From positions 1 to 40,004 of the forward strand of contig JADZEY010000108.1 of the NCBI GenBank assembly GCA_020850315.1: DNA of 40,004 bases, written 5' to 3'. The DNA comes from Armatimonadota bacterium (lineage in GTDB: Bacteria > Bacteroidota > Ignavibacteria > OLB7). Positions 2,582 to 37,000 of the stretch are shown piece after piece. The position numbers and the translations under genes were made by a program. The stretch's first letter is position 1. Each line of letters opens with the position of its first letter. A model generated the notes under the pieces. It saw only the letters and a program-made list of their open reading frames with translations. It was not told where the DNA came from and searched no databases.

Positions 2582-3814
2582 CTATCCACCTTCCAATTCC
2601 CGACACCCAACCACTGCCAGTGCTGTTGCCAGAATCGGATCGTCCTCCTTCATCAGCACGCTGTGGCGGTTGCTGAAACTGCCGTCCTTGTGTTGCTCGG
2701 CAGCGTAGATGGCGGCGGCCTGCTGGGGCCAGTCTCCGGCAATTCCCAACGCGCGGTAGGCTTGGCAGCGTCCGGCAAGGTGGTAGTAGTGAAGTGCCAA
2801 ATGCCACGGCTCGGGGTCGCCTTCGGGGATGCCTTCGGGGCGGTCAAGGACTGGGTGGGTAATTAGCCAGTTTCGCACCCCCCCGATGCGCTCGTCGGTC
2901 AGCGGAACGCCAGCGGCCACCAATGCCAACGCGCCGTCGCAGGTTGCCGTGGCGTAGCTTCGGAAGGTGGCACAATGCTTTGCGTCGGCGGGTTCTTGCA
3001 GCCCCTTGTTTGCCCCCAACACAATCGGCGAAAAGTAGAAACCGCCATCGTAGCGGACCTTCCCCACGGCTTGCTCATCCAACCGATCATGCGGTTGCTG
3101 GCGCTGTTCGGATGGATGCTTCTGAAGAAGCCGCAAAAAGGCTGTGGCGTTGTCGTACATCGCTTGGTTCCGCACCCCCGATTCGCGCATTGCCTGAAGC
3201 ACCATGCGGTGGTGCGAAAGATCAACATGGCCGGGGCTACCTTCTGGCAAGGTTGGCGAACCAAACCCCCATGCTCCGTAGGCCAGATGTGCCGGACCAA
3301 AGCCGCGTTGCTCGGTGAGTTGTTGGCGTTGCAGGTAGGCAATGGTGTTGGCAATCAATGGCTGGTCGGTTGGTGTTCCGGCTTTGGCCAAGCAGCGCAG
3401 CCCGTAGCTGGTGGCGTAGTTGGGGTATTCGGTGATGTCGGGATCGCCCAACCCGATGCAGCCGTCGGCGTTGATGCTTCCGCGGATGAACTCCAATCCC
3501 CGCTCAATTTGTTGTTGCCGCCCTTTCTGCAGTTCGGCGGGAAGCCGAAGCAAGGCGTTCAACACAAATGGAGTGTAGGCTTGGCCGGAACGGAGCATCG
3601 CGTACTGCCGGCTGCGCCAAGCTCCATCGGATGATTGCTGGCCCCAAAGGTAATCGGCGGCGCGGCGGAGCGTTTGGGCGGGGTCAACGGTGGGGTTGCA
3701 TCCGTTCAGCAGCGTCGGGACGCTTCCCCCAATCAGAAGAAGCGTCCCCCCGCGTAGTGCTTGTTTCAGGAAGGTGCGGCGGCTTGCGGCGACCTTTTCG
3801 GGGCGATTGTTCAT
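2582..3814 (-). CDS. Tat-exported lipoprotein with alpha/alpha-toroid (squalene cyclase/prenyltransferase-like) repeats
   Basis: The 410-residue product starts with a twin-arginine signal (SRRTFLKQ, residues 11-18), a hydrophobic stretch and a lipobox-like LLNGC with Cys39, suggesting export in folded form and lipid anchoring. The mature part carries repeats of the terpenoid-cyclase/protein-prenyltransferase toroid type, for example LWGQQSSDGAWRS near residue 55 and a TCDGALALVAAG segment further on. The DxDD acid motif of squalene-hopene cyclases is not visible, so terpene cyclisation is not supported. It lies 21 bases downstream of a second toroid gene and is almost certainly co-transcribed with it. 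The substrate and reaction are unknown. Confidence 0.8.
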   Translation of the reverse strand: MNNRPEKVAASRRTFLKQALRGGTLLLIGGSVPTLLNGCNPTVDPAQTLRRAADYLWGQQSSDGAWRSRQYAMLRSGQAYTPFVLNALLRLPAELQKGRQQQIERGLEFIRGSINADGCIGLGDPDITEYPNYATSYGLRCLAKAGTPTDQPLIANTIAYLQRQQLTEQRGFGPAHLAYGAWGFGSPTLPEGSPGHVDLSHHRMVLQAMRESGVRNQAMYDNATAFLRLLQKHPSEQRQQPHDRLDEQAVGKVRYDGGFYFSPIVLGANKGLQEPADAKHCATFRSYATATCDGALALVAAGVPLTDERIGGVRNWLITHPVLDRPEGIPEGDPEPWHLALHYYHLAGRCQAYRALGIAGDWPQQAAAIYAAEQHKDGSFSNRHSVLMKEDDPILATALAVVGCRELEGG

Positions 3815-3835: not shown

Positions 3836-5209
3836 CTATTGCACTACTCCGGTTGTTCCACCTTTGCCGCTGGTGATCCGAAGCATCTCGGCATCGCGGT
3901 CGGCGGTCAGGCACAGGATCACCGCAGCGGTGCAGAACACCGGGCTGGTGATGCAGTGATGCCCGCTCCAGCTTCCATCTCCATTCTGGATTTTCTGCAA
4001 CCGCTCGTGCATTTTATCATTCCATTTGCGCCAGTCGTCGCCGCCGGTGACAACCAACGATTCGCTGGAGAGCATGTAGCTTAGGAACTCCTCTCCGCCA
4101 TTGTTGCCAAAGCCGGAAAGCACCCGCTCATCGTTAAGTTTTGCCACGGCTGCGCCGTTTTGGTCGTAGGCGCGTGCAAGTTTGGAGGCTTCATTCCGGG
4201 TTATCCCGGCCTTCACCAAATTATCCACCGTGACATCATCGCTGTCGCGTAGTTTCCCTTCCCGTTTGGCTGCAACCACAATATCCTTTGCCCTTTTGGT
4301 TTCCTTTGCCGCGGCGCGTTGGCCGCTGGAGTTTGCGTACAGTTCAATCCCGGCTCCGGCATCGGCGCGGTACGATTTTGTGCTGGGGTTGTAGTTCCCT
4401 TTCTGATACTCGCGCGAGCGTTCCAGCACGCTATCGTTCACGGCACGTCCGTTTTCCTGGGCAATTTCCAGTGCGTTGTTGGCCATCGAGGATTGCAGCA
4501 CCGGTGCCCATCCGCCGTGGTTCCAGCTGCCGTCTTCTTTCTGGGAGTTTTCAATCTTCCGCACGCATTTGTCCAGTGCTTTCTCGGCGCGGGCTTTCAG
4601 TGTTGGCTCGTCGGCCAATGTTGGCAGCACGCGGCCAAAGAACTGGGCACAGAGCGAGACATCTACAAACTCACCCAGCTTCCGTTGGGGTTGTGTTCCG
4701 GCAACGTCGCTGATTCGTGGGCCTTCTTCTTTGTATTGCTCTACAGTGGTCAGTAAGTACTCAAGTGCGTGGCGGAGGTTTTCGCTGTACTCCCCTTTCA
4801 CTGGGTTGTAGCCGGCGCGAAGCAGTGCCATTGCGGTGAAGGCTGTTGTGCCGGGGTCAACCGTTACTGCGTGGGGATCGCGTTGGCCCTGTTTAGCGTA
4901 GCTTCCGGCGCCCCATCCACCATCCTTGTGTTGGGCATCGACCAACCACTGCAAGCCTTTTTGCATGAATGGATCAATGGGGCCGGGTTGGGTAATGGTT
5001 TCGTTGTTGTTGTTGGGGGTATTGTTGTTCAGCGGGGCATTTCTACCGTTTTGGGGAACATACTCGGTGGTTGCGGAATGTTGGTTGCCGAAGAAGGAGG
5101 TGATGCTGGCACCAAGCATCAATGTGCCAAGCGTAGCAAGTGCCGAAGCCCGAAGTGTGGTGAACTGCTGCGCCGTGCGGCGCGCTGGTGTGCGATGATC
5201 CTTTTGCAT
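3836..5209 (-). CDS. Exported alpha/alpha-toroid (prenyltransferase/squalene oxidase repeat) protein
   Basis: This 457-residue protein starts at the ATG 5207-5209, supported by AGGAT six bases upstream; the frame is open to 5356 but without good start signals. An N-terminal hydrophobic segment (about residues 20-40) is followed by an Asn/Pro-rich linker (NNNTPNNNN). Toroid repeats then follow: LVDAQHKDGGWG near residue 90, ENSQKEDGSWNHGGW in the middle, and QNGDGSWSGHHC near the end with further Cys and His. The DGxW signatures are QW-like. No DxDD motif is seen. The HHC...C cluster could bind metal, by analogy with protein prenyltransferase beta subunits, but this is inference. It is the first gene of a two-gene unit with the lipoprotein toroid. 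Confidence 0.78.
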   Translation of the reverse strand: MQKDHRTPARRTAQQFTTLRASALATLGTLMLGASITSFFGNQHSATTEYVPQNGRNAPLNNNTPNNNNETITQPGPIDPFMQKGLQWLVDAQHKDGGWGAGSYAKQGQRDPHAVTVDPGTTAFTAMALLRAGYNPVKGEYSENLRHALEYLLTTVEQYKEEGPRISDVAGTQPQRKLGEFVDVSLCAQFFGRVLPTLADEPTLKARAEKALDKCVRKIENSQKEDGSWNHGGWAPVLQSSMANNALEIAQENGRAVNDSVLERSREYQKGNYNPSTKSYRADAGAGIELYANSSGQRAAAKETKRAKDIVVAAKREGKLRDSDDVTVDNLVKAGITRNEASKLARAYDQNGAAVAKLNDERVLSGFGNNGGEEFLSYMLSSESLVVTGGDDWRKWNDKMHERLQKIQNGDGSWSGHHCITSPVFCTAAVILCLTADRDAEMLRITSGKGGTTGVVQ

Positions 5210-5458
5210 GGTGTGATCCTGATTAACATGGAAGATGACGGTGGATTGGATGTGATGGCCACACCCTCCCCTTCCCCCTGCTGTGGGAGAGGCCGATTTT
5301 CGATGTTCGTTGCGCAAGGAACATGGGGATGACGGCATGGGGTGGGTTTGTGACATGGGGGATTTTTATTCTTGTTTAAGGAAATGAAAAATCCCAAATT
5401 GACTCTATCAATTGGTGATTTCCCATCATCTATCTATCCTATTCTGGAGAGGTCCATC
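5210..5458. promoter_or_regulatory. Divergent intergenic region with 9-bp inverted repeat
   Basis: The 249 bases separate the divergent toroid operon and the 942-residue secreted protein gene. An inverted repeat GGGATTTTT (5359-5367) and AAAAATCCC (5387-5395) with a 19-base loop is present, and a C-rich/GGGAGAGG tract occurs at about 5263-5292. Promoters for both directions should lie here, but I cannot pick out convincing boxes. The plus-strand gene has GGAGAGG six bases before its ATG. Confidence 0.45.
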
Positions 5459-8287
5459 ATGCGTTCTGTTTGGTCTGTTCTGCTTGGGTTGCTTCTTGCT
5501 CATCTCACGGTTCTGGGGCAACAGCAAGATGTACGATTATCCTCCGAACCAGTTAGTTGTTTGCTACCAACTGACCTTCGTATTCAATCTGCAGCAAGCA
5601 TCGGCTCGACGGTGTTAGTGGCTTGGGGGACGGTTGTTGCCGAAGGGCAATCGGGTGGTGTGAAGAATGCGTTGCGGTTCCAATTGCTGCGCGACACAAC
5701 GCCGGTTGGTTTGCAGCGAACATTGCATGGGGCCGAAGCCATACCCCACAGTGTAGTGCGGGTGTTCGAGGTAATGGATCGTTATCTGATTCTGTGGAAT
5801 GACCGACGCGCCGGAGCGGAAGGGATCTATGCGCAAATAATGGATACCGCAGGAAATTTTGTAGGCGATGAACAGCAAATCAGCAACGGCATACTTCAGG
5901 CTGATAGCCTAGTGTGGCGGGTGCGTTCTTCCGCAGGGTGGTTTTTGGTTTGGCAAGATACGTCCACAGGGGGAAGGTTGCGGGGAGTGAGGCTGGATGA
6001 TCGGGGCAATCCAACGGACACGCCAACAACGCTGGCAATAGGAACGTACCGCTGGGGGCAGCAATTTTCTGCTATCCCAGGGCTGCTTTTGCTGAAGGAT
6101 CAGTCGGGAAATGCATTTGCTTTTTGGGGCGATAGTGGAATCGCTCCTATGCCGCTCCCCTCCGATCATTTCAAAGGTTCATATTTCTTGGATGCCGATA
6201 GCTCGTTGCTTGTATTGAAGGATACCACACTCTCCTTCTACAACTCCTTTGTTGATACGATCCCTGCTAAAACACTTCAGCTATCGTTTGGCCCCAACAT
6301 ACCGTATGGCTCGAACCTACTACGCGGCACGCCGATAGTGATGAAAGATGATAGTGGCGGGATCAGCATTATTTATATGCGCGAGCGGATAGCATTGGAG
6401 AATGTCTCTTATATCAGCCATCTCTACCGTCAAAAAATCCAAGGGGATACCCTCGGCAAAAAAGATACGCTTGCTGTATTAAAGTATTTGGATTATACCC
6501 ATGGTGGTTTCGCAGGGTATCGAACCAAGTTTGACGCAGCAATTATTAGCCAAGGATTTGATAACACCACCCTTGTCACTGTAAGGTTTTTTGAAGAGGA
6601 AATACAGAATTATATGATTTATAGAAGGGTTCCTAAATTTTTGACGTTCGCACATGATAACACAACATTTATGGGACCATTTCGGGATGCGGTGCTGCCA
6701 AGGCCACTGCGCCGTTTGGGGATAGATGGATCGCCAATAGAACGAAGGTTGTTCGATACGGTAAGTTCGGTTAGCGTGGTGGTGGCATCAGGTGCCGAGC
6801 AAGTGTTGACCACAAACATTACTGGCGAGATAATAAACACCCCGCAGCTACGCCCCAACGTGATTGAACGCGAAGGAAGGTTGTTGGTGACATACAACCA
6901 ACCGGAAGACAAAGCCAAATACGTTCTTGGCGGATGGGATGGGGGAGTAAATTCTACCGTGCGAATGTTGCGTCCACTGAGTATTCCTACCTATTATACT
7001 GTAGATGTTGATAAAACCTACGAATCAACTACTGAACAACTTTATGGTATGAATTATGCAGTTATACAACATAGGTTCTTTACCTCAAAATACACGCAAC
7101 GACGAGGGGAAACTCCAACCACTACATATACCGAAGAGTCCAATTTTTACATTGCAACCGATACAGGATGGTGTAAAGCAATCAAATTTAATGGTGCTGC
7201 AGTGCTGTGGCATGGAATACATTCGGCAGTGCTGGTGATGAGGCCATTGGAATTTCAGTATAACCCAGAGGAAAAAATGTTGTATGGGGGCGAATTAATT
7301 CAAGAAGATCCACTTGCAACGATCCCTAAACATCAACGGCGATACATCTATGCGTTAACCTCACACGGGAAAGTACAGTGGCAAATTGATAATGTCCCTG
7401 TAGTGGTTCCCGAATATCGAGATTCTGTAAAAGCCATTATTCCAATTGCCGACAAAGAATTTTTAGCCATCTATCCGGCCAGCCAGCAGCATCTGAAGGA
7501 TACTGTAGTGATGGAACAATCATCCCTACCCCAGATAAACGGGAAGATTGGATATCTGCGGTATATGGCACTCCGTAATCAGCGATACCTACGCTATTAT
7601 TCAATGGAGTCTGCGCCAAATACCTTACTGCTGGAAATCTTCTCTCACGGCGGAACATTGTTGGATTCTACCTCTTTGCAGTTCAATGGTTTGGCATCGC
7701 GGGTTGCTATCACACAGAACCCTGCTGATCGCTCTATTGCATTATTGTATGGCGGCGCAGGGGGGGCAAAACTGACGTTGTTGAGTGAACGACTGCGGGT
7801 GCAGAAAGATATCGATGCTGGCATGATGCCACTGCAAGATTATCCTCTCAGCATCACCCGCGATACCGTTGGGCTTGTGGCAGGGATATTCCGCAACGAC
7901 ACGCTGTTTGCTGTGTGGGAGGACCTCCGGAACGGCACACCGGATATTTACAGCACAGCATGGAAGACCCCGGAAACTATGGTGGCTCCCATCCTGCCGC
8001 CTCCCTCCTTAGCCATTTCCACAAACCAACCGATTAGTATCACAGCGGTTGCGCCAATCCCCTGCAAGGATCAACTGATCGTCCAACATCACCTTGCCGA
8101 GGGGGGAATTGTGACGTTCGACATTCTGGATGACATGGGAAGGAGCGTCAAGCAGATCACAAAAAAACTTCCGCAAGGCGTAAGCGAAAGCCATTTGGCA
8201 ACCGATGATCTGTTCCCAGGAGGCTATGCAGCAAGGATGCGGAGCCAGCATGGGGAAGCTATCATCCGGTTTCTTGTGGTGAGGTGA
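5459..8287 (+). CDS. Large secreted protein with type IX secretion-like C-terminal sorting domain
   Basis: The 942-residue product begins with a clear signal peptide (hydrophobic residues 5-20, cleavage likely near LGQ). GGAGAGG lies six bases upstream of the ATG at 5459; the frame extends upstream to 5372 without support. The long central region has no family that I recognise. Scattered short motifs such as LVWQDTSTGGRLRGVRLD, LILWNDRRAGAEGIYAQ and FAVWEDLRNGTPDIYS look like repeated beta-strand blades and suggest a beta-propeller-like body. The last about 85 residues (VAPIPCKDQLIVQ ... GGYAARM ... IIRFLVVR) resemble the sorting tail of type IX secretion cargo. The coding sequence looks more AT-rich around 6300-7600 than its neighbours. 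It is likely monocistronic. Confidence 0.75.
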   Translation: MRSVWSVLLGLLLAHLTVLGQQQDVRLSSEPVSCLLPTDLRIQSAASIGSTVLVAWGTVVAEGQSGGVKNALRFQLLRDTTPVGLQRTLHGAEAIPHSVVRVFEVMDRYLILWNDRRAGAEGIYAQIMDTAGNFVGDEQQISNGILQADSLVWRVRSSAGWFLVWQDTSTGGRLRGVRLDDRGNPTDTPTTLAIGTYRWGQQFSAIPGLLLLKDQSGNAFAFWGDSGIAPMPLPSDHFKGSYFLDADSSLLVLKDTTLSFYNSFVDTIPAKTLQLSFGPNIPYGSNLLRGTPIVMKDDSGGISIIYMRERIALENVSYISHLYRQKIQGDTLGKKDTLAVLKYLDYTHGGFAGYRTKFDAAIISQGFDNTTLVTVRFFEEEIQNYMIYRRVPKFLTFAHDNTTFMGPFRDAVLPRPLRRLGIDGSPIERRLFDTVSSVSVVVASGAEQVLTTNITGEIINTPQLRPNVIEREGRLLVTYNQPEDKAKYVLGGWDGGVNSTVRMLRPLSIPTYYTVDVDKTYESTTEQLYGMNYAVIQHRFFTSKYTQRRGETPTTTYTEESNFYIATDTGWCKAIKFNGAAVLWHGIHSAVLVMRPLEFQYNPEEKMLYGGELIQEDPLATIPKHQRRYIYALTSHGKVQWQIDNVPVVVPEYRDSVKAIIPIADKEFLAIYPASQQHLKDTVVMEQSSLPQINGKIGYLRYMALRNQRYLRYYSMESAPNTLLLEIFSHGGTLLDSTSLQFNGLASRVAITQNPADRSIALLYGGAGGAKLTLLSERLRVQKDIDAGMMPLQDYPLSITRDTVGLVAGIFRNDTLFAVWEDLRNGTPDIYSTAWKTPETMVAPILPPPSLAISTNQPISITAVAPIPCKDQLIVQHHLAEGGIVTFDILDDMGRSVKQITKKLPQGVSESHLATDDLFPGGYAARMRSQHGEAIIRFLVVR

Positions 8288-11987: not shown

Positions 11988-12413
11988 TTACTCAGGTTGT
12001 GGTGCTGCGGCAAGCTCTTTTTGTTGGTCGGGGTTGGTAAGGGCTTCCTTCGGTAGCGTTTTCATTCGCAGAAGGTAGGTGGTGGTGCAGGTTGCGGTGC
12101 AGATCAATGCCACCGTTGCTGTCCACCGTCCAATGCTGTAGATGGAGAAGCCAATAGATACCCAAAGAAAACCAAGTGTTATCACCTTTGCCCGCATTGG
12201 CATTCCACGCCGCTCCTTGATGTTCCTGATGTAGGGGCCAAGATGCCGGTGGTTCATCAACCAGTCATGCAGCCGCTTGGAACCCCGCACGTAGCAGGCC
12301 GAGGCAAGCAGCAAGAACGGAGTAGTGGGAAGCAGCGGCAGAAAAATGCCAGCCACACCAACCCCCACAAAGAAGGTCCCAAGAACGTTGTAGAAGATTT
12401 TTATGGGGGTCAT
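11988..12413 (-). CDS. YbaN-family (DUF454) inner-membrane protein
   Basis: A 141-residue membrane protein. The opening helix region FYNVLGTFFVGVGVAGIFLPLLPTTPFLLLASACY and the following RGSKRLHDWLMNHRHLGPYI are diagnostic of DUF454/YbaN proteins, with the conserved LPLLPTTPF turn. Two further helices follow around residues 80-120. Function in the family is unknown. ATG 12411-12413 is preferred over an upstream TTG at 12437 because the conserved domain begins right after it, although no ribosome site is clear. It follows the PDZ repeat gene by 45 bases on the same strand, so co-transcription is likely, and it converges with the lipoprotein gene. Confidence 0.87.
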   Translation of the reverse strand: MTPIKIFYNVLGTFFVGVGVAGIFLPLLPTTPFLLLASACYVRGSKRLHDWLMNHRHLGPYIRNIKERRGMPMRAKVITLGFLWVSIGFSIYSIGRWTATVALICTATCTTTYLLRMKTLPKEALTNPDQQKELAAAPQPE

Positions 12414-12458
12414 AACACTTGCAAGATAGCATCGCAAAACTGTGATGAGTGATCCGAT

Positions 12459-14885
12459 TTATTTCCCCCCATCATCAAACACTATCCCCTTGTTCCCTTT
12501 CACCACTGCTGTTCCAGGGCGGACCCGTGGCTCCACGTAGTAGTCATCCCCATGCCCAATATCCAGCAGCAATCCCAACGATCCATGCTTCCGTGGGCGG
12601 TTGAAGTTCCCGCCCCCCTGGCTGTGTGTGGTGTCGCTTAGCTTGATGTAGTAGTGGTCGTTCCCGTTGTAATCCAGCAGCCACGCAAACGCGACGTTCA
12701 GCGCCGAACCCTGACTACTGGTGGAGCCACGATAGGTGTCGTTTCCGGCAAGGTCCTCCAGGCAGCCGCTGGACCAGTCGTGCGCGTTTCCCTGCTCAAG
12801 GCCGTGATAGGCATCGTACATATCATCGCCGGCATCATCCAGCAACGCGCCAAACGAAAGATGGATACCGCTCCCCTGCGAGTACTGCCCAGCGGTGTAG
12901 CGGTCGTAGCCCTCGGCATCGTGCAGTATCCCCAGCGCGTACCAGTAGCTTCCCCCCTGGCTGAAAAAATCGCTGGCGTACAGGTCGCTGCCGCGGCGGT
13001 CGCTTAGCAGGCCGATTCCGCCGTCGGTTCCAATTCCCGTGGTCCAGGGGCGCATCCCGTAGCCGAATCCTTGCGACATCGCCAAGTGCGCCCGCCCTGG
13101 ATAACGCGAGTCGGGAATTTTCCAGCCGGCGCGGTAGCTGTCGTTCCCTTCCGTTTCAAGGATTGCCCCATAGCCCCGCGCATATCCGAACGCTTGCGAG
13201 AAGACCTCCGACGAGTACTGGTCGGCCCCACCCCCTTCCCAAATGATCCCGGCCCCCAAAAATCCTGCCCCTTGCGAACACCACCGTGCGGTGTACACGT
13301 CATCCCCCGCGTAGTCGGCCAGCACGCCAATTCCCAACAGGCCCGCCCCTTGCGAGAACATGGCCGCCCGATAGGTGTCGTTCCCCTGAAGATCAACCAG
13401 CATATCCACCGCGCCAACGCCGGCACCTTGCCCTGTGGTGTTGCTGTGGTACAGGTCATCACCGCCAACATCAACCAGCAAGCGGAAGGAACCGAGCGTT
13501 GCCGGGGGAAGCTGATACACGTCATCGCCCCCCACATCCATGATGAACAGAAACGTGCCACTGTAGCGATTTGGCCCCGGCCCACCAATCACGCAACGCC
13601 CCTGCGGTGTTGTCCATTCGTGAATCACGGTTCCGGTTACTCCATCGGCTCTTGGTGAGGAATGGGGTGTTGGAATGGTGGACGCTATCTGCCGTATCCA
13701 TCCGGTGTCGGCCAACGTGGCCAGCATCTGCGCGGCGGTGAACAACGCGGCCATATCTACCTTGTCGGCTTCGGCGAACAGCGCGGCCATGCGCGACTCC
13801 TGGGCGTTGCGGGCATTGCGGCGGCGGGTGCGGTCGCCGATGGAGTCAAGCAAGGTTTCCCAATCATGCTCAATATCCAGAATCCGCATCAGCTGCGCCG
13901 TCAGCGAGTCAAGGTTGGGGCGCACCGGGGAATAGGCCCTGTCCAACTGCTGTTGCACCGCCGCAAACCCAGCCGCTACTGCATCGAAATTGGTGGGCTG
14001 CGCAGCAGTTGGCAGCTCCGCTGGCAAGCCAACCGGAAGGTCCAGCGCGTGGCCGGCAGCCCACAACGCACCGGCGACTCCATTGGCCCCGAACGAACTC
14101 CATGCTTCTTCCGACAAATACCGTGAGTAGGCCGCCAGCCGTGTGGGATGGTTGTGCAGATAGGTGATGGCGTTCAATCGCCACGGATTGGGGCGGCCCG
14201 CAAAGGGGACTGTGCAAAAATCTTGGTCGCTAATCACCCGCATCTGCTTCTTGATGGTATCCCCCCAAGCGGTAAGCCCTTGTTCGGCCAGCGTCTGCCC
14301 AAGCCAGCTTGCTTGCGTTGTCGGGAACACCCCCCGCCCGTTGAATTGCGGCTCCAGAAACGGCATTGGTGTTCGGGTTGCGGTTGCAAGCCGGATGGGG
14401 AATTCCCTCACCACTCCATCCCGCAAGATGCGGAACCAGGCCGTGTCGCCGGGGCGCATATCGCGGGCGGTGATGGCCATGTATTCATCGCCGTTATGCA
14501 GGCTGTCGCCGATCGGTTTCCCGTTCATTGATAGGATAATATCGCCGATGAAGATTCCCGATTCATCCGCCGGCCAGTGTGGCATCAGGTGCCAAATCTT
14601 GAAGCCCCTTGCGCCAGCAGGGAAACCGGCCAGCACCGCTGCGGTGTCGGCGGGAACCGGGTTGCTGTAGATGCCAAGCCGTGGGCGCAGTGGATCCGGC
14701 GGGCCAGGCCACGTAAATGCGGGAAGGTCCACCACCCGTAGGCTTTCGCGGATGAGTGAGTCGAGCCGGGAGGGTTGGGCAGCAGCGGGGATGCTGGCCG
14801 CAATGCAGAAAACGCAGAAGAGAATAGACCACAGAGGGGACAGAGGCAGAGCGGGGAAAAGCGTGCGCGGGAAACGGTTGTTCAT
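12459..14885 (-). CDS. Exported PDZ protein with about 12 GxDxY/SQG repeats (predicted beta-solenoid)
   Basis: The 808-residue product has an N-terminal signal (hydrophobic stretch about residues 15-35 ending in PAAAQ). A PDZ-like domain covers about residues 90-180 (GFPAGARGFKIWHLMPHWPADESGIFIGDIILSMNGK). A helical, less conserved middle follows. From roughly residue 440 the chain is a run of units ending in G-[ND]-D-x-Y (GDDVY, GDDLY, GNDTY, GADQY, GNDSY, GSDLY, GYDRY, GDDMY, GNDHY, GDDYY), joined by FSQGxGxGxxGxLxD segments. The spacing of 25-45 residues and small/acidic residues suggest a calcium-binding or stacked beta-solenoid; this is inference. The start ATG at 14885 is chosen because it opens the signal peptide. 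It is divergent from gcvT. Confidence 0.75.
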   Translation of the reverse strand: MNNRFPRTLFPALPLSPLWSILFCVFCIAASIPAAAQPSRLDSLIRESLRVVDLPAFTWPGPPDPLRPRLGIYSNPVPADTAAVLAGFPAGARGFKIWHLMPHWPADESGIFIGDIILSMNGKPIGDSLHNGDEYMAITARDMRPGDTAWFRILRDGVVREFPIRLATATRTPMPFLEPQFNGRGVFPTTQASWLGQTLAEQGLTAWGDTIKKQMRVISDQDFCTVPFAGRPNPWRLNAITYLHNHPTRLAAYSRYLSEEAWSSFGANGVAGALWAAGHALDLPVGLPAELPTAAQPTNFDAVAAGFAAVQQQLDRAYSPVRPNLDSLTAQLMRILDIEHDWETLLDSIGDRTRRRNARNAQESRMAALFAEADKVDMAALFTAAQMLATLADTGWIRQIASTIPTPHSSPRADGVTGTVIHEWTTPQGRCVIGGPGPNRYSGTFLFIMDVGGDDVYQLPPATLGSFRLLVDVGGDDLYHSNTTGQGAGVGAVDMLVDLQGNDTYRAAMFSQGAGLLGIGVLADYAGDDVYTARWCSQGAGFLGAGIIWEGGGADQYSSEVFSQAFGYARGYGAILETEGNDSYRAGWKIPDSRYPGRAHLAMSQGFGYGMRPWTTGIGTDGGIGLLSDRRGSDLYASDFFSQGGSYWYALGILHDAEGYDRYTAGQYSQGSGIHLSFGALLDDAGDDMYDAYHGLEQGNAHDWSSGCLEDLAGNDTYRGSTSSQGSALNVAFAWLLDYNGNDHYYIKLSDTTHSQGGGNFNRPRKHGSLGLLLDIGHGDDYYVEPRVRPGTAVVKGNKGIVFDDGGK

Positions 14886-21789: not shown

Positions 21790-21994
21790 GAACTGAAGGG
21801 GCATTTGTCGGTAAGGCTCTATATTGCGCCCCGTGTGTCTGGGGTCGAACCGACTGAATTGCACGAAGACGACGACTTCCTTTCCCGTAATAGCCTTCAA
21901 AGCCGCCTGCTTTCCACACAATTCAGTCTGCCGATTTCTGGTTTCCCACGGGCCATCCAGCCTTTGCCAACAACAACATTTTGCTTCCGCGACC

Positions 21995-24900
21995 ATGAGC
22001 ACGTTCGGTCTGAACTCCGCGTATATCAACGAAATGTATTACGAGTTCCTCCGCAATCCCAATGCGTTCGATGCAACGTGGCGAACCTTTTTCGCCACCT
22101 ACAATCCGAACGAGGAAACGCAGGAGAATGAACTTCCTGCCACCCCGCCACGCACCAACCAAGCAGCTGCTCCGGCGCCAGTATCGGCGGCCCCGGCACC
22201 AACGCCGACCCCGGCAGCCACCGGGCCGCAGCCACGCAATGGCAATACCCCGCCGGCATCAGCTGCGCCGCAAAATGTGGAGCCACCGGCGGCCAAACCT
22301 GCCCCGGCAGCAAAATCACCCCAGCCGGTTCCCGATGGTGCGCGCCAGCTAACCAGTGTGGCATTGCGGATTGCCCAGAATATGGAGCAAAGCCTAGATG
22401 TCCCAACAGCAACCTCCTTCCGGGAAGTCCCCGTGAAGTTGCTGGAAGAGAACAGGATTCTGCTGAACAGCTACCTGAAGGCAACCGATGGTGGAAAACT
22501 GAGTTTCACCCACCTTGTCGGGTGGGCATTGGTGAAGGCGTTGGGGCAGTATCCATCCCTGAACAACGAGTTCCGCGCCATTGATGGCAAATCCTATCTG
22601 GTTGTCCGGCCCGATGTTAATCTGGGATTGGCAATTGACCTTCAACGCCCCGATGGTGGCCGCTCGCTGGTGGTTCCCAGCATCAAGCGTGCCAACACCA
22701 TGGACTTTCGGCAGTTCTACGAGAGCTACGAGGCGATTGTCCGCAAGGCGCGCCAGGGGAAACTTGGCCCCGACGATTATGCAGGAACCTCCATCACCCT
22801 CACCAACCCGGGAACGATTGGTACCAACGCCTCGGTACCACGGCTGATGGTTGGGCAAGGGACCATCATCGCCACCGGCTCAATCAACTACCCTGCGGCC
22901 TACCAAGCAATGGATTCCGCCACGTTAAGCGAGCTTGGTGTCAGCAAGGTGATGCAGATGACCTCCACCTACGATCACCGTATTATCCAGGGGGCCGAAT
23001 CCGGATTGTTTTTGGCCTACGTTCAGGAATTGCTCACCGGTGAACATGGGTTCTACGATGAGATTTTCAACAGCCTGCAGATACCCTACAAGGCATTGCT
23101 ATGGCAACGCGACCGCCACCCTGCACTGTTCGGAATTGACCGGGGTGAGATGATCCGCGAACAGCAGCGGATTCTGCAGATGATTAACAGCTATCGGATG
23201 CGTGGCCACCTTCACGCACACCTTGATCCACTTGGGCGCGAGGTTCAGTATCAGCCGGAGCTTGACCCTGCCACCTACGGCCTAACCATCTGGGACTTCG
23301 ACCGCCGATTTAGCGCGGGGGGTCTTGCCGGGCAGGATGAGATGAATCTGCGGGATATTCTTACTGTGCTTCGCGACACCTACACCCAACGGATCGGTGT
23401 GGAGTTCATGCACATCCAGGACATTGACGAGCGGAACTGGCTGCAAGAACGGATGGAGCGCACCCGCAACCAGCCAAAACTAACCCCCGAACAGCGGCGG
23501 CGAATTCTGCAGAAACTGAGCGAGGCCGAGGTGTTCGAGAAGTTCCTTCAGACGAAGTACACCGGCCACAAACGGTTCTCGCTGGAAGGAAGTGAAACCA
23601 TGATTCCGATGATTGAGGAGATGGTGTATGCCGCTGCCGATGATGGAGTGAAAGAAGTGCTGATTGGAATGGCACACCGTGGCCGCCTGAATATGCTGGC
23701 AAACGTGCTTGGGAAAAATGCCGGGAAAATTTTTGGGGAATTTGAGGATGCTCACGGCGTGGACACCGTAACCGTGCTTGGTTCCGGCGATGTGAAATAT
23801 CACTTGGGCGCGCGCGGGATTGCCCAGACCGACAGCGGCGCAACAATTGGAATGTGGCTGGCACCAAACCCAAGCCACCTTGAAGCAGTAAATCCAGTGA
23901 TTGAAGGGATGACCCGCGCCCGCCAGGACCGCGCCGGTGCCGGAAGCTACGGCCACTACATCCCCCTACTGGTGCACGGCGACGCAGCCTTTGCCGGCCA
24001 GGGAGTTGTTGCCGAAGGGCTGAACATGAGCCAGTTGAACGGCTATCGGACTGGGGGAACAATTCATCTGGTGATCAATAACCAAATTGGCTTCACAGCA
24101 TCCCCCGACGACACCCGCTCCGGCATCTACGCCACCGACATCGCCAAGATGTTGCACGTCCCAATCTTTCATGTGAATGCCGACGACCCAGAGGCCTCGG
24201 TGTATGTGATGGGGTTGGCCTACGAGTATCGCCAGCGTTTCAACCGTGATGTTGTGGTGGATCTGTACTGCTACCGTCGGCATGGCCATAACGAGACCGA
24301 CGAACCGAGCTACACCCAGCCGGTGATGTATAAAAAAATTCGTTCCCATCCATCGGCACGCTTGGTGTACACGGGGCGGCTGCTCCGCAATGGCACGCTG
24401 ACAACTGATGATGTTGACCGGATGGAAGGTGAGTTCCGTGAGAAGTTGGAGGCGTTGCTTGCGGCCACCAAAGCACAACCAATGCCATCTGTTCCAAGCG
24501 ACCCGCTGGCCGAACAACAGATCAACCCGGTGAACACTTGGACCAACCCCAACACCGGGGTTCCTGAATTTGTGCTGAAGCATATTGCCGAGCAGCTTTC
24601 AACAATCCCACAAGGGTTTGAGATTCATCCCAAGCTGGCCAAAATTGTTGAAGGGCGGATGAACGCCGTCAACGATGGAAAGATTGATTGGGCGCTGGCC
24701 GAATCATTAGCGTTTGGATCGCTGCTGCTGGAAGGGCATCCGATTCGTTTGTCGGGCCAGGACTCGCGGCGCGGAACATTCTCCCAACGCCACGCAGCAC
24801 TGATGGATCAAACCACTGGCCAAGCCTACGTTCCGCTGAACAATCTGGGGGAAACGCAGGCTCCGTTTATGGCCTATGATTCTCCGTTGTCGGAGTATGC

Positions 24901-25717
24901 AGTGCTTGGGTTCGAGTATGGCTATGCCGTGGTGGATCCGCAAGCATTGGTGTTGTGGGAGGCGCAGTTCGGCGATTTCGTTAACGGTGCCCAGATTGTG
25001 ATTGACCAGTTTATCTCCTCCAGCGAAGACAAGTGGGGCCAAACAAGCGGCTTGGTGATGCTGTTGCCTCATGCCTTTGAAGGCCAAGGTCCGGAACATT
25101 CATCGGGGCGTTTGGAGCGGTTCTTGACGTTGGGAGCCGAGGACAACATGCAAGTGGTGATCCCATCAACCGCCGCGCAATACTTCCATGTTTTGCGGCG
25201 GCAGATGAAACGTGAGGTCCGCAAGCCGTTGATTGTTATGACCCCCAAGAGCCTGCTTCGCGACCCGATGGTGGCTTCGGCTTTGGGTGAGATGACAACT
25301 GGCTCGTTCCAGACGATCATTCCCGATGCTGAGATTAGCAACCCACAAGCGGTGAACCGGGTTATCTTCTGCTCCGGCAAGGTCTATTATGATTTGCTTC
25401 GGGCTCGGCGTGCGTCGGGGCAGCTGGATGTGGCGATTGTTCGGATTGAGCAACTCTATCCCTTCCCCTTCGATGAAGTGCTGAACCAACTAAAAATCTA
25501 CGACCACGTTCGCGATATTGTGTGGTTGCAAGAAGAGCCAAAAAACATGGGTGCATGGCCAACGTTTGCCCACAACTTCTTGGCGTTGATTTTTGACCAC
25601 CAAAAACTCTCCTTCTTGGGCCGCCCTGCATCGGGAAGCCCTGCATCCGGTAGCGGAAGGCTGCATGGATTGGAGCAATCGGAGATTATGCGCCGGGCAT
25701 TGGAGTTCAGCAAATAG
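21995..25717 (+). CDS. kgd: Fused 2-oxoglutarate dehydrogenase E2-E1 (Kgd/OdhA type)
   Basis: A 1240-residue polypeptide joining three parts: a short N-terminal E1-type segment (residues 1-40, NEMYYEFLRNPNAFDATWRTFF), an Ala/Pro linker (about 45-105), an E2 acyltransferase catalytic domain (about 110-345) and a full E1 thiamine-diphosphate domain (about 400-1240). The E2 signature TYDHRIIQGAESG has its His at residue 328. E1 landmarks include AHRGRLNMLANVLGK near residue 560 and RRHGHNETDEP. No lipoyl domain is present, as in actinobacterial Kgd/OdhA, so a separate lipoyl E2 is expected. It acts in the TCA cycle converting 2-oxoglutarate to succinyl-CoA. ATG 21995 starts the conserved N-terminus; the frame is open upstream to 21824 without support. 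Confidence 0.94.
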   Translation: MSTFGLNSAYINEMYYEFLRNPNAFDATWRTFFATYNPNEETQENELPATPPRTNQAAAPAPVSAAPAPTPTPAATGPQPRNGNTPPASAAPQNVEPPAAKPAPAAKSPQPVPDGARQLTSVALRIAQNMEQSLDVPTATSFREVPVKLLEENRILLNSYLKATDGGKLSFTHLVGWALVKALGQYPSLNNEFRAIDGKSYLVVRPDVNLGLAIDLQRPDGGRSLVVPSIKRANTMDFRQFYESYEAIVRKARQGKLGPDDYAGTSITLTNPGTIGTNASVPRLMVGQGTIIATGSINYPAAYQAMDSATLSELGVSKVMQMTSTYDHRIIQGAESGLFLAYVQELLTGEHGFYDEIFNSLQIPYKALLWQRDRHPALFGIDRGEMIREQQRILQMINSYRMRGHLHAHLDPLGREVQYQPELDPATYGLTIWDFDRRFSAGGLAGQDEMNLRDILTVLRDTYTQRIGVEFMHIQDIDERNWLQERMERTRNQPKLTPEQRRRILQKLSEAEVFEKFLQTKYTGHKRFSLEGSETMIPMIEEMVYAAADDGVKEVLIGMAHRGRLNMLANVLGKNAGKIFGEFEDAHGVDTVTVLGSGDVKYHLGARGIAQTDSGATIGMWLAPNPSHLEAVNPVIEGMTRARQDRAGAGSYGHYIPLLVHGDAAFAGQGVVAEGLNMSQLNGYRTGGTIHLVINNQIGFTASPDDTRSGIYATDIAKMLHVPIFHVNADDPEASVYVMGLAYEYRQRFNRDVVVDLYCYRRHGHNETDEPSYTQPVMYKKIRSHPSARLVYTGRLLRNGTLTTDDVDRMEGEFREKLEALLAATKAQPMPSVPSDPLAEQQINPVNTWTNPNTGVPEFVLKHIAEQLSTIPQGFEIHPKLAKIVEGRMNAVNDGKIDWALAESLAFGSLLLEGHPIRLSGQDSRRGTFSQRHAALMDQTTGQAYVPLNNLGETQAPFMAYDSPLSEYAVLGFEYGYAVVDPQALVLWEAQFGDFVNGAQIVIDQFISSSEDKWGQTSGLVMLLPHAFEGQGPEHSSGRLERFLTLGAEDNMQVVIPSTAAQYFHVLRRQMKREVRKPLIVMTPKSLLRDPMVASALGEMTTGSFQTIIPDAEISNPQAVNRVIFCSGKVYYDLLRARRASGQLDVAIVRIEQLYPFPFDEVLNQLKIYDHVRDIVWLQEEPKNMGAWPTFAHNFLALIFDHQKLSFLGRPASGSPASGSGRLHGLEQSEIMRRALEFSK

Positions 25718-30905: not shown

Positions 30906-31068
30906 TTCTGGGGTGAACAACAACGCACACTAACGGCACAGAAAAGAATCACGTATGAACATTGGGACCCCCTCCGAATCGCTTTCTGGCGGTTCATCTA
31001 TCCATAGAGAAAGAGCTAAAAACACAATACATCGGTTAATCAATGATACTCTCATCGCAGGAGGAAAC

Positions 31069-34000
31069 ATGCAACGTTTGTTGAAGACATTGCTCCTCTC
31101 GGCAGCGTTCGTGCTTGTCGGTCAAAGCGTTCTCGCGCAGACGCTTCCGATTGTACAAGTAAGCGGGCGCGTGTCGCAGACAGGGCTACGGGTATTCACC
31201 AAGGATACGCTGTATCAAATAGCGGGTGATTACCACGTTGCCGGCATTCTGCTCATCGAGCCGGGAACAACTGTAGAATTTCTGCCTAACGGCCGACTGA
31301 TCGACTCGGTTGGTGGCAGGATCATCGCCGACGGCGATCTCCAAGCAACTTGGAATCGTTCGACGCCTGATCTGACTGCTTATCCTGACGGATTTGCTGA
31401 CATCAGCTTTATCCGCGATAACGTCTTTGTTGGCGGTAAGCCAGAAATCACGGCGCCGGGCCTTAGCTGGTCTAACTACGCGCCGTATCTCTTTTTCTAC
31501 TACGGAAACTTTCTCGATCGCTACCCTTCAGACCCAAATCTGAAGAATGTCTCGTATCGTCGTGACGTTACGCGGGCACCGATCATCTTCCGTGGTCGCC
31601 CAGTAAACAAGTTCTCGCGCGAGTGGGGACACATCGTGATTCTGCCAGGCGCAGATACTGCGGTGTTCCGTAACGTGCAATTCGTGAACTTCCGCAAGGA
31701 TACCGCAGCGGTGAAGACCACGTTCTTCTACGCACCAAACGGTGAAAATCTTGGCGGCCTATACAACAACGGCCAGATTGTTGCTGCTGACCGCTTGAAC
31801 AAGCAACTTCGCACCCTTACCACTGGTGGTGGTGGTGCTCTTACTGTCTTCTCCTCGAAGACATGGTTGTTGGACTGCCGTTTCGATAGCAACTTCGCAC
31901 GTTATCATGGTGGTGCTGTGCAATTCTTGCAGGCTCCGTTTGATAACACGATTACTGACCCGCAATACACGTCGTTCTATCCAGTGGATACGAACCTTGC
32001 TGAACGGCCACAGCATGGCCAATTTGTCTATCCAAGCTTCGATCCGGAAAGCTACGACCACTATACCCACGCGATCTACACTCCGTTCGGTGTCATACCA
32101 ATTATGACCATGACGGATCCACGAGTGAACTGGGTTGTTGGGCCATACACTCCGGCACCGCCATACGATATGACCGGTATTATTCAGTACCGCCAAACAT
32201 ATGACGACGGTCGTCAGGCTATCAATAAAGGGCGCGTTCGCCGCGTTTCCTTCCGCGATAATCGCGTTGTGGTCAGCAACTTCACCGAAGACTTGGCCGG
32301 CTATCGCGACAACATTGATGAAGTACCAATCATCAATAACTCGCTTCCTGGCGGCGTTGCTAAGAACGAAGCATACGGTGGTGCTGTCTATATCTCAGGT
32401 CGTCGTCACGTGACGGTGTACTGGGGGCGTGCAATGGGCGATCCAATGGACACAGTGGTTGCCGAACGCAACTATGCTGTGAACTTCCAGGGGCCTGTTG
32501 CTAGCTCGCAAGGCGCCCGCGGTGGTGCAATGTATGTGAACGATAGCACCTCGATGGTCTTCCAGCTTGCTCGCTTCGAAAACAACTTCACTGCTGTGCC
32601 AAATGTGCCGATGGATGATTACACTCAACGTGGCCGTATGTCGCAGGGTGGCGGTATCTACATGGGCAAAACCTCGCCACAGCTTACTGTGCGTGATGTG
32701 ATCTACTTCCGCAACAACAAAGCGGGCCGTGGTGGTGGTATCTACGTTGCCGCCATGGATAACCCATTTGGCAATAACATCCTGATCTTCGATCCGTTCC
32801 TCTCGCCGAACTTGTTGGGCGATAGCGTGTACTTCATTCGCAATACTGCCGAATACGACGGTGGCGCAATCTACACGCAGCGGAACATGACGATTGACGC
32901 TCGGTACTTGACGTTAAGCGACGGCAGTGGCCGTTTGGTGGATCACCGCATTCTGCTGGACAGCAACGCTGCTGGTTTGGCTGGTGGTGCTATCGTGATT
33001 GATAATCAAACAAACATGATGAAGAGCAATGCACGGATTACCCGCGCACTCTTCACCAACAACGCCGCTGGTGACTCGGCAATGGCTTCGGATTTGCGCT
33101 TGATCAAACTCTATGATCCGGTCAACAATCCAGCCAATCCTATCAACCCATACAGCGTTCGTACCTACAGCGATTCCTTCCGTCTGCCACGCAGCATCAC
33201 CCAACACATCCTTGGTGGTGGTGCTATCTACTCGCGGTTTGGCAATACCAATTTCTATCAAGCAGTTGAGTTCAATCACAACTGGACAAAGAGCGGAAAC
33301 GGTGGTGCCATTGCAATGATCACACCAGTGACCGCAAACCGCTACTTCTTGGCAGAAGGCGACATCGCCTACAACTTTGGATCCAATCAGTCTGTTCCGT
33401 TCAACGACGGCCCAGAGCCAAGCGATATGCGTCAGATGACGCGCTTCATCCGCAATTATGCAATGAAGGATTCGATGAACGCTGAGCTGAACGTTGATCC
33501 ACGTTACAGCGAGAATATGCTTCTTGATCCGAAGCGTAATGGAACTGGCTTGGGTGGCGCAGTCTATATCAACGATCGCCAGCCGCCAGGGCCAAACCCA
33601 GGATATGCACGTACCGACTCGGTGATTTCGCACCGTGTCCGTATGGAGCAGAACTGGGCATGGTCGGGTGCAGCAGTCTATTCCGATAACTACGAGCTTC
33701 GGTTCCTGCTCAGCAAGTCGCTGGTGGCTGGCAACCGCGCACTATCGGATGAAGGTCGCAACGTTGACACTATCGAAAACTACAAGACCTCGCCGGCTGC
33801 AAACCGCACCGCTGGAACAATCTTCTACGGTGATATCTCCGGCCCATTGCCACAGCAAGAGTACCACATTGGTGCTAACTCCATCTACGACAACGATGCA
33901 CGCTTCCTGCTCCGCCTGCCGGATGTTCCGCAAGGCTTGGTTGGCAGCGGCCGCGGCGGCGTAGATACGTTGCGCGGCAACTACTGGGGACAAACCGAAG

Positions 34001-37000
34001 CTCCGCTCACGACCATCTTGGCTACAGGAACACCTCAAAACACCTTCTACGTGATGGGGAACGGCTGCACTTTGCCGCTGAAGAACCCAACAAAGGTGAA
34101 CGAGCAAGGCCCATTTGAATCACGGTGGGCTGGCTACAACTACACGCCAATCCCTGTTGGGTTGATCCCTGGCTTGGATACCCTGTTGATGCAAGGCCGT
34201 GTGTACGACCTGTTCGACAAGGGTGTTGATATCAACAGTGCCGATTACTCCATCCCACGTATGGCTCCAATCGAGGACTTCTCGGTTGGCCTGCCCGACC
34301 GCCTGCGCACCTTCGGTACGCTGGGTGGCCCGAACAGCCCATATATGGATAAAGTGGTTCGCCGCTTGACCCGTGATCCTTGGATTGCTGACGTTGACTT
34401 GATCAACAACAAGCTCCAACGTGAGTGGGTTGGCGATCATCCAATTGGCTACCCGCTCTTCCTTGAAGCATTGGCTAACTACTTGGGCGATCCAAACACC
34501 GATAACAATGACCAGTATGCATTGAATCAGACAGTTTTCTTTGTCATCAATGCTGAAACAGGCGAGTTTGTTCGCGCAAACTTGAAGCAGATTCGCGAAG
34601 GAAGCGACCTCTTCCGCTCACGGATTGAGTTCGTGCCGGACTCCATCAACCGTGACATTCTGATGCGTCGCGCATTGGAAGGCCGTGCTGGCTTCTCGAT
34701 TGGTGAGCTTCATCGCTTGGCTCCGCGCTGGTATGTGGAGCAAGGATATAGTTTGGAGCAAGCACGCCTTGCCGCAGCTAAGTACGAAGATTCGGTTGCC
34801 GTTGCTGGTCGCCGCTACGGTGGTTTGGTCAGCGAATTGGGTGGCGTGAACTTCCGCTACATCAACCGCGTCAATCCGGTCACGTTTGCTGATGTGTATG
34901 GTGGCGAACGCTACCACGCGCTTCCAGTGTTGACTGGCGACCGTATTTGGGTTGTTAGCCGCACCATGTTGTGGGATGTCAACGAAGACATCACCACCGT
35001 GGTCAACAACGCACGTTTCGCTGGTCTGGAATTCCAGATTGACGACGACAACAGCGTCCTTGCGCCGATCATCTACGGTGACAAGACTGCGCTGGAAGCG
35101 AAGCAACCAGCAGAGCTGCGCAACACCCGCTTCTTGATTGAGGATGCCAACTATCCAAGCGATAAGACTGGCCGCATTAAGTCGCAGATCTTCGACATCA
35201 CAGCTGTTGACATCAATGGATTCTACGACCCACGGTCGTTCTACTTCCCAGATCGCTACACTGGTCTGGAGTATGCTTGGACTCCGTTGGTTGAGTTCCC
35301 GAACTCTTCGGTTGTTGTTCCAAGCACCAATCCAGCCGAGATTCGCTTGGCATCGTGGCTGAAAGCTGATACGGTCTTCCCATCAGCCGTTCATGCAAAC
35401 GCAATTACACGTGATAGTGCCCACGCCTATGGCTTCGTCCGCTTCTACGGCCAGCCACACAACCCAGACGTAGTGCCGGGTGGTGAGTTGTTCGAGATTC
35501 GTGTGACCAACTATCCGCCAAGCGTTCGCACAGTGGATTCGTTGAAGGGATTGGTGCCGGATGATACCGTTGCCAAGTACATCTATCTCTATCCACCGTA
35601 CTACAACTGCCAAGTCTATGATCCGCAGACGGCTCGTTACTTGCAGCAGGATACGGTTGACGTGACAGGTGCCGCAACAGCAACCTATCGCTTCCGCATC
35701 TTCGTTCAGGACACACGCCCGAACTTCTTGGGTGATGTGGCCAAGTGTCCAGGACGTGGCATCTACAATGCTGTTGCCCAAGTCACCGACTCGCTCCGTT
35801 TCGACTTTGATGTCAATACGGACGATGAGAACGAAGACAACGACGCAGCAACACGTGATAACTGGAGCTTCCCATACGGGCGCACAACTTACGGCTTCCA
35901 GTTTACCGATCGGAATAGCGGGAACAACTCCAACACCATTCCGACCGAGAACGATGATGCTAAAGAAATTCGTCCGGTGTGGATGGGTGATACGTACTTA
36001 CATGACATCAATCGCGCACCCGATCAAGGTGCAACGGTTCTTCAGACTGGTAATGTGATTGTACGTATGACCGAGGTTGTTGCTCTGAATTTGCTGAAGA
36101 ATCCAGCCCAGTCGAACAACCTTTACAACACCGACACGATCTTTACGGTTGTGGCAAACGACGGACACACTGGCCAAAACCAGCGCAACGTTCGGGTGTA
36201 TGTGAACATTGCTCCATCGCTGATTGCGCAAACCTTGCCACCAGCGAAGGAAGACATTGATTACAACCCAACGCTGTTGGATTCCAACAAACGGATTAAA
36301 GCTGAAGACCTGAACAAGGGTGATCGCGTTCGGTTCACGCTCGTCTATCGCGACGACGCACTGAACCCAGCAGACCTGCGTACGGGTGGACAGACGTTAG
36401 ATAAGAATGGTGCGCCAATCCAGCACACCTCAACAATCGCCTTCGTGCGTCGCGACCCATGCTACTTTGAAGCAGGTGTCTATAACGCACCGAAGACAAC
36501 ACCAAGCTGGTTGAAGATCAACCCAATCTCTGGTATTCTGTACGGTACGCCGGGCTTGAACGATGCTCCGCATCTTTCCACCAACCCGAACTTCCCGCCA
36601 CAGTTCGGTCCAGATACGGTGACAGTGATTGCCGAGGACGAGTATGGATTGACCGACGTCGAGACCTATATCTTGGAAGTTGATTCCACGAACCACAAAC
36701 CAAAACTGTTCGGTCGTCCGGCAGTGCAGTGCGTGTTCGCTGGCGAAGCCTACAAGGATAGTCTCTGCGTCCGTGATCGCGACTTGGGTCGTTTGGATCC
36801 ACGCTTCTATGAAGAGCTGAAGCTGCGTGCATACTCTGATGCTCCAGCATATCAGGGCGTGACCTTCACGGTGACACCGAACACATTCAAGGGCGCAACA
36901 AACGACACGAACTGCTTCCAGATTTCGGCAAATATCCCAGCCAACGTTCCGGCTGGCAAGATGCCGATCACGGTAGAAGTAACCGATCTGGGTGGCAACA

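Follow-up and report, generated by a model that had tools for sequence, protein, structure and literature searches.

An exported PDZ protein with a C-terminal repeat domain

The window (the whole 40,004-nucleotide stretch of DNA analysed here) carries on its minus strand a gene for a four-part protein, in which an N-terminal export signal, a PDZ domain, an all-helical domain and a long repeat domain follow one another, with a membrane protein gene lying downstream (Table 1). The N-terminus of the product looks like a cleavable export signal, judged by a simple rule and a helix in the AlphaFold2 (AF2) model, and a simple hydrophobicity rule picks out an export-like stretch in 70 of the 75 relatives with a complete N-terminus. 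Export, with the periplasm or cell surface as the predicted location, is part of the best overall explanation discussed below.

The PDZ domain was recognized by Pfam PDZ_2 with an E-value of 5.9e-6 (just below the gathering score) and by NCBIfam degP_htrA_DO, which matches the PDZ part of the protein, and it superposes on PDZ domains of the HtrA family with a structural Z of ~15. An exported PDZ protein is what the sequence-only reading had proposed for this gene, and the export stretch together with the PDZ match at residues ~66-171 bears this out. The domain is thus of the PDZ1 type seen in the HtrA/DegP/DegQ/DegS proteases. By contrast with these enzymes, the window protein has its PDZ followed by the helical domain and then the solenoid; Pfam found no trypsin-like protease domain in it, and only the signal and a short linker precede the PDZ. 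The predicted protein is not a protease, because the HtrA catalytic domain is absent. Orthologues from the same taxonomic order are 57-84% identical to it.

Table 1. Features of the PDZ-solenoid gene and its downstream neighbour (window coordinates)
Feature	Coordinates	Strand	Residues	Basis or remark
PDZ-solenoid gene	12459..14885	-	808 codons + stop	
N-terminal export signal, ending ...PAAAQ	14778..14885	-	~1-36	sequence and AF2 helix 17-31
HtrA/Deg-type PDZ domain, without protease domain	14373..14690	-	~66-171	Pfam, NCBIfam, structure matches
All-helical domain, family motif D.xRLxxV..Lxx.PL	13677..14321	-	~189-403	AF2 and alignment
Repeat domain, predicted beta-solenoid of ~14 coils	12468..13661	-	~409-806	AF2, VIA, alignments
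D-x-x-G-x-D-x-Y turn array	12537..13538	-	450-783	motif scan and coil profile
Coil 6 insertion loop, adjoining R612/P613	13026..13124	-	588-620	alignment and conservation
Coils 5-9 with conserved non-motif residues (candidate binding/active site)	12777..13196	-		conservation, 81 sequences
DUF454 membrane protein gene	11988..12437	- (same strand)		21 nt downstream of the PDZ-solenoid gene

The repeats form a predicted beta-solenoid of fixed length

A scan of the window protein with the motif D-x-x-G-x-D-x-Y (close variants allowed) gave twelve matches between residues 450 and 745. One of them is a shifted overlap at 683/684, leaving eleven distinct units, and a further unit with one extra residue at 775-783 brings the total to twelve. 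Given that shuffled domain sequences yielded a mean of 0.4 matches and a maximum of 4 (2000 trials), the roughly twelve GxDxY repeats counted from the letters are real. The unit had been written as SQGxGxGxxGxLxDxxGxDxY and assigned to the C-terminal half of the protein. Its turn does run throughout (D 95%, G 99%, D 99% and Y 98% over eleven coils in 81 sequences), but SQG is not part of every unit, coils 5-9 being the only ones in which 94% or more of the relatives have the Q; the C-terminal placement was confirmed, with boundaries refined to residues ~409-806. The repeat period is ~26 residues (26-28), with a single long insertion in coil 6. The three repeat domains of the source genome, that of the third paralogue included, align over their full length with coil-specific residues conserved.

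AF2, given the isolated repeat domain and 81 aligned family sequences, returned a regular solenoid of ~14 coils (pLDDT 94.4, pTM 0.93), with xGxLxD and Yxxx as two of its strands and a third, short one; in the full-length model most repeats likewise exceed a pLDDT of 90. The beta-solenoid that the sequence-only reading had offered as a possibility is thereby supported, no disorder being predicted across the repeats and no known solenoid family matching the sequence. The C-terminal domain is accordingly described here as a predicted rigid beta-solenoid, in which a single RTX-like turn, D-x-x-G-N/D-D-x-Y, closes every coil. A low-complexity or disordered repeat was ruled out by the high pLDDT, the fixed coil number and the column-specific conservation, and the alignment indicates that the family is of fixed length with a constant coil count.

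A Foldseek search of PDB and BFVD with the isolated domain found no match at E <0.001, an absence that is no proof of a new fold. VIA, which realigned Foldseek's own candidates with the predicted model as query, placed PDB 3p4g on top (Z 22.7, rmsd 3.3 Å over 272 residues, 16% identity), followed by EtpA (Z 17.9) and then by several general beta-helix proteins; PL6 alginate lyases were also among the matches (Z 14.5-14.7, rmsd near 5 Å).

The turn resembles that of RTX repeats, but the family is distinct

The acidic turn had been likened to RTX calcium nonapeptides, with the remark that the unit is longer, and both observations hold: a Ca2+-bound beta-helix of RTX type stands nearest among solved folds, the Asp/Gly register of the coils agrees with that of RTX repeats, and the unit is a ~26-residue coil with one turn. 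In turns of the RTX consensus XUXGGXGXD, Ca2+ is bound by the carbonyl groups of G5 and G7 together with the Asp9 carboxylate (PMC6891781). Placed in this register, the coil profile has a large aliphatic residue at position 2, G7 at 99%, N or D at position 8 in 86% and D9 at 99%, which is the U-x-x-x-x-G-x-D-x-U register of the calcium turn in RTX repeats (PF00353). By contrast, Y (98%) replaces the next aliphatic residue of RTX, D replaces the first glycine of GGXGXD (position 4, 95%) and the second glycine is variable, so that there is no GG; the family has one turn per coil, whereas RTX repeats have two nonapeptides (18 residues) per coil and two Ca2+ rows. A further, apparent difference is the predicted N-terminal export signal of the family, RTX proteins being delivered by type I secretion through a C-terminal signal, without an N-terminal signal peptide.

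Membership of the RTX family was ruled out by three kinds of comparison. PF00353 matched none of the 81 family sequences and nothing in the source genome, while as a control it recognized genuine RTX proteins from elsewhere in the phylum (E 7e-14). With reciprocal unit profiles, the RTX-unit profile matched 0 of 66 family members, the coil profile matched 66 of 66, and the coil profile had no significant match among RTX proteins. Finally, when the family profile was compared with the profiles of four RTX segments, the probability was 0.2%.

The solved structure closest to the model, 3p4g, is region IV of MpAFP/MpIBP, the Ca2+-bound RTX-type beta-helix of the Marinomonas primoryensis ice-binding adhesin, and it shares with the predicted model a right-handed solenoid with one G-N-D turn per coil. 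Its coils are 19-21 residues long with the consensus xGTGNDxuxuGGxuxGxux (PMC3492233), compared with ~26 residues in the family, which differs also in an extra Asp at RTX position 4, a fixed coil count and coil-specific residues; there is no match between the two at the sequence level.

Because the model has two Asp per coil in ladders and the repeat domain has a net charge of about −27, it is likely that divalent cations, most probably Ca2+, are lined up along the Asp ladders. Since RTX profiles miss the family, the turns could instead hold the ladders by hydrogen bonds or by another cation. If the ladders do bind calcium, a variant with 26-residue coils joins the RTX-like solenoids, one carrying an N-terminal signal and not a type I substrate.

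A widespread domain family without an established name

The sequence-only reading had recognized no established domain name, and none came to light: the repeat domain of the window protein has no Pfam, NCBIfam or PHROGs profile match, the 81 family sequences scanned singly in Pfam gave chance-level matches only with no enzyme signature in the domain, no PDB chain matched the family profile at E <10, and literature searches for the combination of features found no description. The domain is a real, conserved and unnamed family whose solenoid is RTX-like yet distinct.

The source genome (4.24 Mb, 99.8% complete) encodes two paralogues, one of 998 aa with a C-terminal HEAT solenoid and one of 703 aa with a different N-terminal part. 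A profile of the three repeat domains of this genome, run against GTDB species genomes, found at least 344 relatives, the best 80 of which were kept. By title and lineage, the matches listed fall into about 18 phylum-level groups: Planctomycetota, Nitrospinota, Zixibacteria, Eisenbacteria, WOR-3, Ignavibacteria/Kapabacteria, Chlorobiota, Cloacimonadota, Latescibacterota, Fermentibacterota, Verrucomicrobiota, Kiritimatiellota, Tectomicrobia, Stahlbacteria, Coatesbacteria, Effluviviacota, Myxococcota and Gammaproteobacteria; all listed relatives are metagenome-assembled genomes by title, and single outliers could be mis-binned. Within the phylum of the source, 23 of 296 sampled genomes carry the family, all 23 in the same class, and in its order all five genomes examined do so, four of them with three copies each. 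A phage or plasmid origin was rejected, with no relative in viral contigs (pattern scan) or in PLSDB plasmids. This conserved, exported domain of ~365 residues occurs in hundreds of bacterial species, yet no profile in Pfam, NCBIfam or PHROGs recognized it.

The window gene is under strong purifying selection and the repeat domain is its most constrained part. Against the orthologue of a congener, dN/dS was 0.14 for the whole gene, 0.08 for the repeat domain, 0.14 for the PDZ and 0.23 for the helical part; against more distant orthologues the repeat domain retains 67-70% identity and the PDZ and helical part 42-52%.

HEAT and PDZ modules in different branches

Family members with a complete N-terminus have the helical domain followed by the ~365-residue repeat domain. 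The window protein has the defining features of the family, namely a helical domain with P247 (96% in the family), about twelve turns, and R612, Y647, H675 and D703. What is attached to this core varies. A HEAT solenoid is fused C-terminally in 36 of 83 loci; in another 22, the gene that follows on the same strand, frequently with an overlap, encodes a HEAT protein homologous to the fused extension, so that HEAT is fused or next door in 58 of 83 loci in total. In two further loci (L025 and L035) the HEAT frame overlaps in a stop-to-stop listing, and these may join the next-gene group. Most of the next-gene HEAT proteins start with an export-like stretch. HEAT proteins of the PBS-lyase type (HEAT_2, HEAT_PBS) are thus the partner of the family in most loci, but across the 83 loci none is fused or next door at the window gene or in the PDZ branch.

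PDZ was detected by Pfam in 8 of 54 diverse members, and the PDZ forms make up one side of a tree branch (support 82/77). The neighbourhoods of this branch showed no conserved partner gene and indicated no pathway; the neighbours of HEAT-fused Kapabacteria members (NFACT-like, TPR and RibD genes) looked lineage-specific and uninformative. Single members carry, according to Pfam, an exonuclease/phosphatase domain, a PQQ propeller, a PPIC rotamase or a Por secretion tail. By sequence reading and Pfam tallies, an endonuclease/phosphatase-like N-terminal domain was assigned to L040/L064 and a PQQ-type propeller-like N-terminal segment to L054, and in L033 the N-terminal part is long and contains repeat-like helical sequence. 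A third paralogue branch, comprising L003 (from the source genome, C98), L086 and L090, sits on a long stem of 2.59 changes per column, and its N-terminal region looks different.

Conserved residues outside the motif cluster in coils 5-9

Leaving aside two residues in the turn of coil 12, which is shifted, non-motif, non-glycine columns with at least 85% identity in the 81 sequences occur only in coils 5-9: Q564, F566, Q605, R612, P613, Q643, Y647, W648, Y668, Q670, H675, L681, Q698, H702, D703 and L709, a list that, L681 and L709 set aside, is at least 88% identical. None of the non-motif residues of coils 1-4 reaches 85%, and H675 and D703 are 100% conserved across many phyla. W648, H675 and D703 all lie at −8 from the next turn, in coils 7, 8 and 9, respectively; having the same register in three successive coils, they should stack, which suggests a stacked functional trio. 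Similarly, Q564, Q643, Q670 and Q698 all lie at −13 from the next turn, suggestive of a structural glutamine ladder. The coil 6 insertion loop shows moderate conservation in the consensus of the family but diverges in the window protein. From this pattern of conservation, coils 5-9 likely hold a candidate binding or catalytic site, while the same residues could instead serve folding or a fixed protein contact and not a ligand. The HEAT coupling, through fusions and neighbouring genes, together with the invariant non-repeat residues, makes a specific function likely and testable.

A possible mechanism and its alternatives

The explanation that we favour, with confidence that is about evenly balanced, is an exported Asp-ladder solenoid, probably loaded with Ca2+, that bears a ligand or substrate site and is brought to clients in the envelope by PDZ or HEAT modules. 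In such a protein, two aspartate ladders would run along one edge of the ~14-coil solenoid and bind divalent cations, most likely Ca2+, which would be required for folding after export. The conserved residues of coils 5-9, beside the coil 6 loop, would form a pocket for ligand binding or catalysis that is shared by the entire family. The PDZ, or in other branches the fused or next-door HEAT solenoid, would act as the docking module; the PDZ may grip the C-terminal tails of envelope proteins and so let the solenoid site reach its client or partner. More tentatively, and with clearly less than even confidence, the family may represent an undescribed and ancient envelope system, in which the exported Asp-ladder (Ca2+) solenoid with a new stacked-residue active or ligand site forms an obligate pair with an exported HEAT protein in most lineages and has PDZ docking in one branch.

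The main rival, which we regard as rather unlikely, is a pure scaffold: a metal-stiffened platform would assemble envelope complexes via PDZ or HEAT, and the conserved patch would be a protein-protein interface with neither catalysis nor a small ligand. PDZ and HEAT are both protein-interaction modules, the presence of HEAT in or beside the gene in most loci fits a constant partner surface, and the domain lacks a Pfam enzyme signature. However, the PDZ branch keeps the invariant residues without HEAT fused or next door, and therefore the patch cannot serve HEAT contact alone; in addition, a His/Asp/Arg/Tyr/Trp set with an insertion loop would more commonly mark a pocket than an extensive interface.

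Glycan-active beta-helix proteins are numerous, and an envelope polysaccharide-active lyase or hydrolase, with His, Asp, Arg and Tyr as catalytic residues and the cation ladders as stabilizers, would account for the invariance or near-invariance of H675, D703, R612 and Y647 as well as for the PL6 alginate lyases among the structural matches. We consider this improbable. The PL6 matches are much weaker than 3p4g; AlyF, a PL6 parallel beta-helix lyase, shares the general beta-helix architecture (Z 14.7, rmsd 4.8), but there is no family match and both the coil motif and the conserved residues differ. Neither the window protein nor any of the 81 family sequences matched a lyase or Beta_helix profile in Pfam, no glycosidase family match was found, and no carbohydrate gene cluster lies nearby. 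A structural or ice/surface-binding solenoid with a repeated flat face as its binding surface, as in region IV of the Marinomonas adhesin, belongs to the same fold class (Z 22.7) but is very improbable, an ice-binding face being ruled out by the absence of Thr columns (no coil-profile position exceeds 13% Thr among the listed residues, and Asn is frequent only at a position within the turn), with the coil count fixed and conservation confined to a few coils and not spread along a face.

Other genes in the window

Elsewhere in the window, a 2325-aa ORF (30955-37932, plus strand) matches Chlamydia polymorphic membrane protein repeats in its first part (E 6.5e-14) and is likely a surface beta-helix protein, and a 1297-aa fusion (21824-25717, plus strand) combines a 2-oxoacid dehydrogenase E2 catalytic domain with a full 2-oxoglutarate dehydrogenase E1. 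A 971-aa ORF (5372-8287, plus strand) has no Pfam match, and two adjacent minus-strand genes (2582-3814 and 3836-5356) give squalene-hopene cyclase C-terminal matches, one of them weak.
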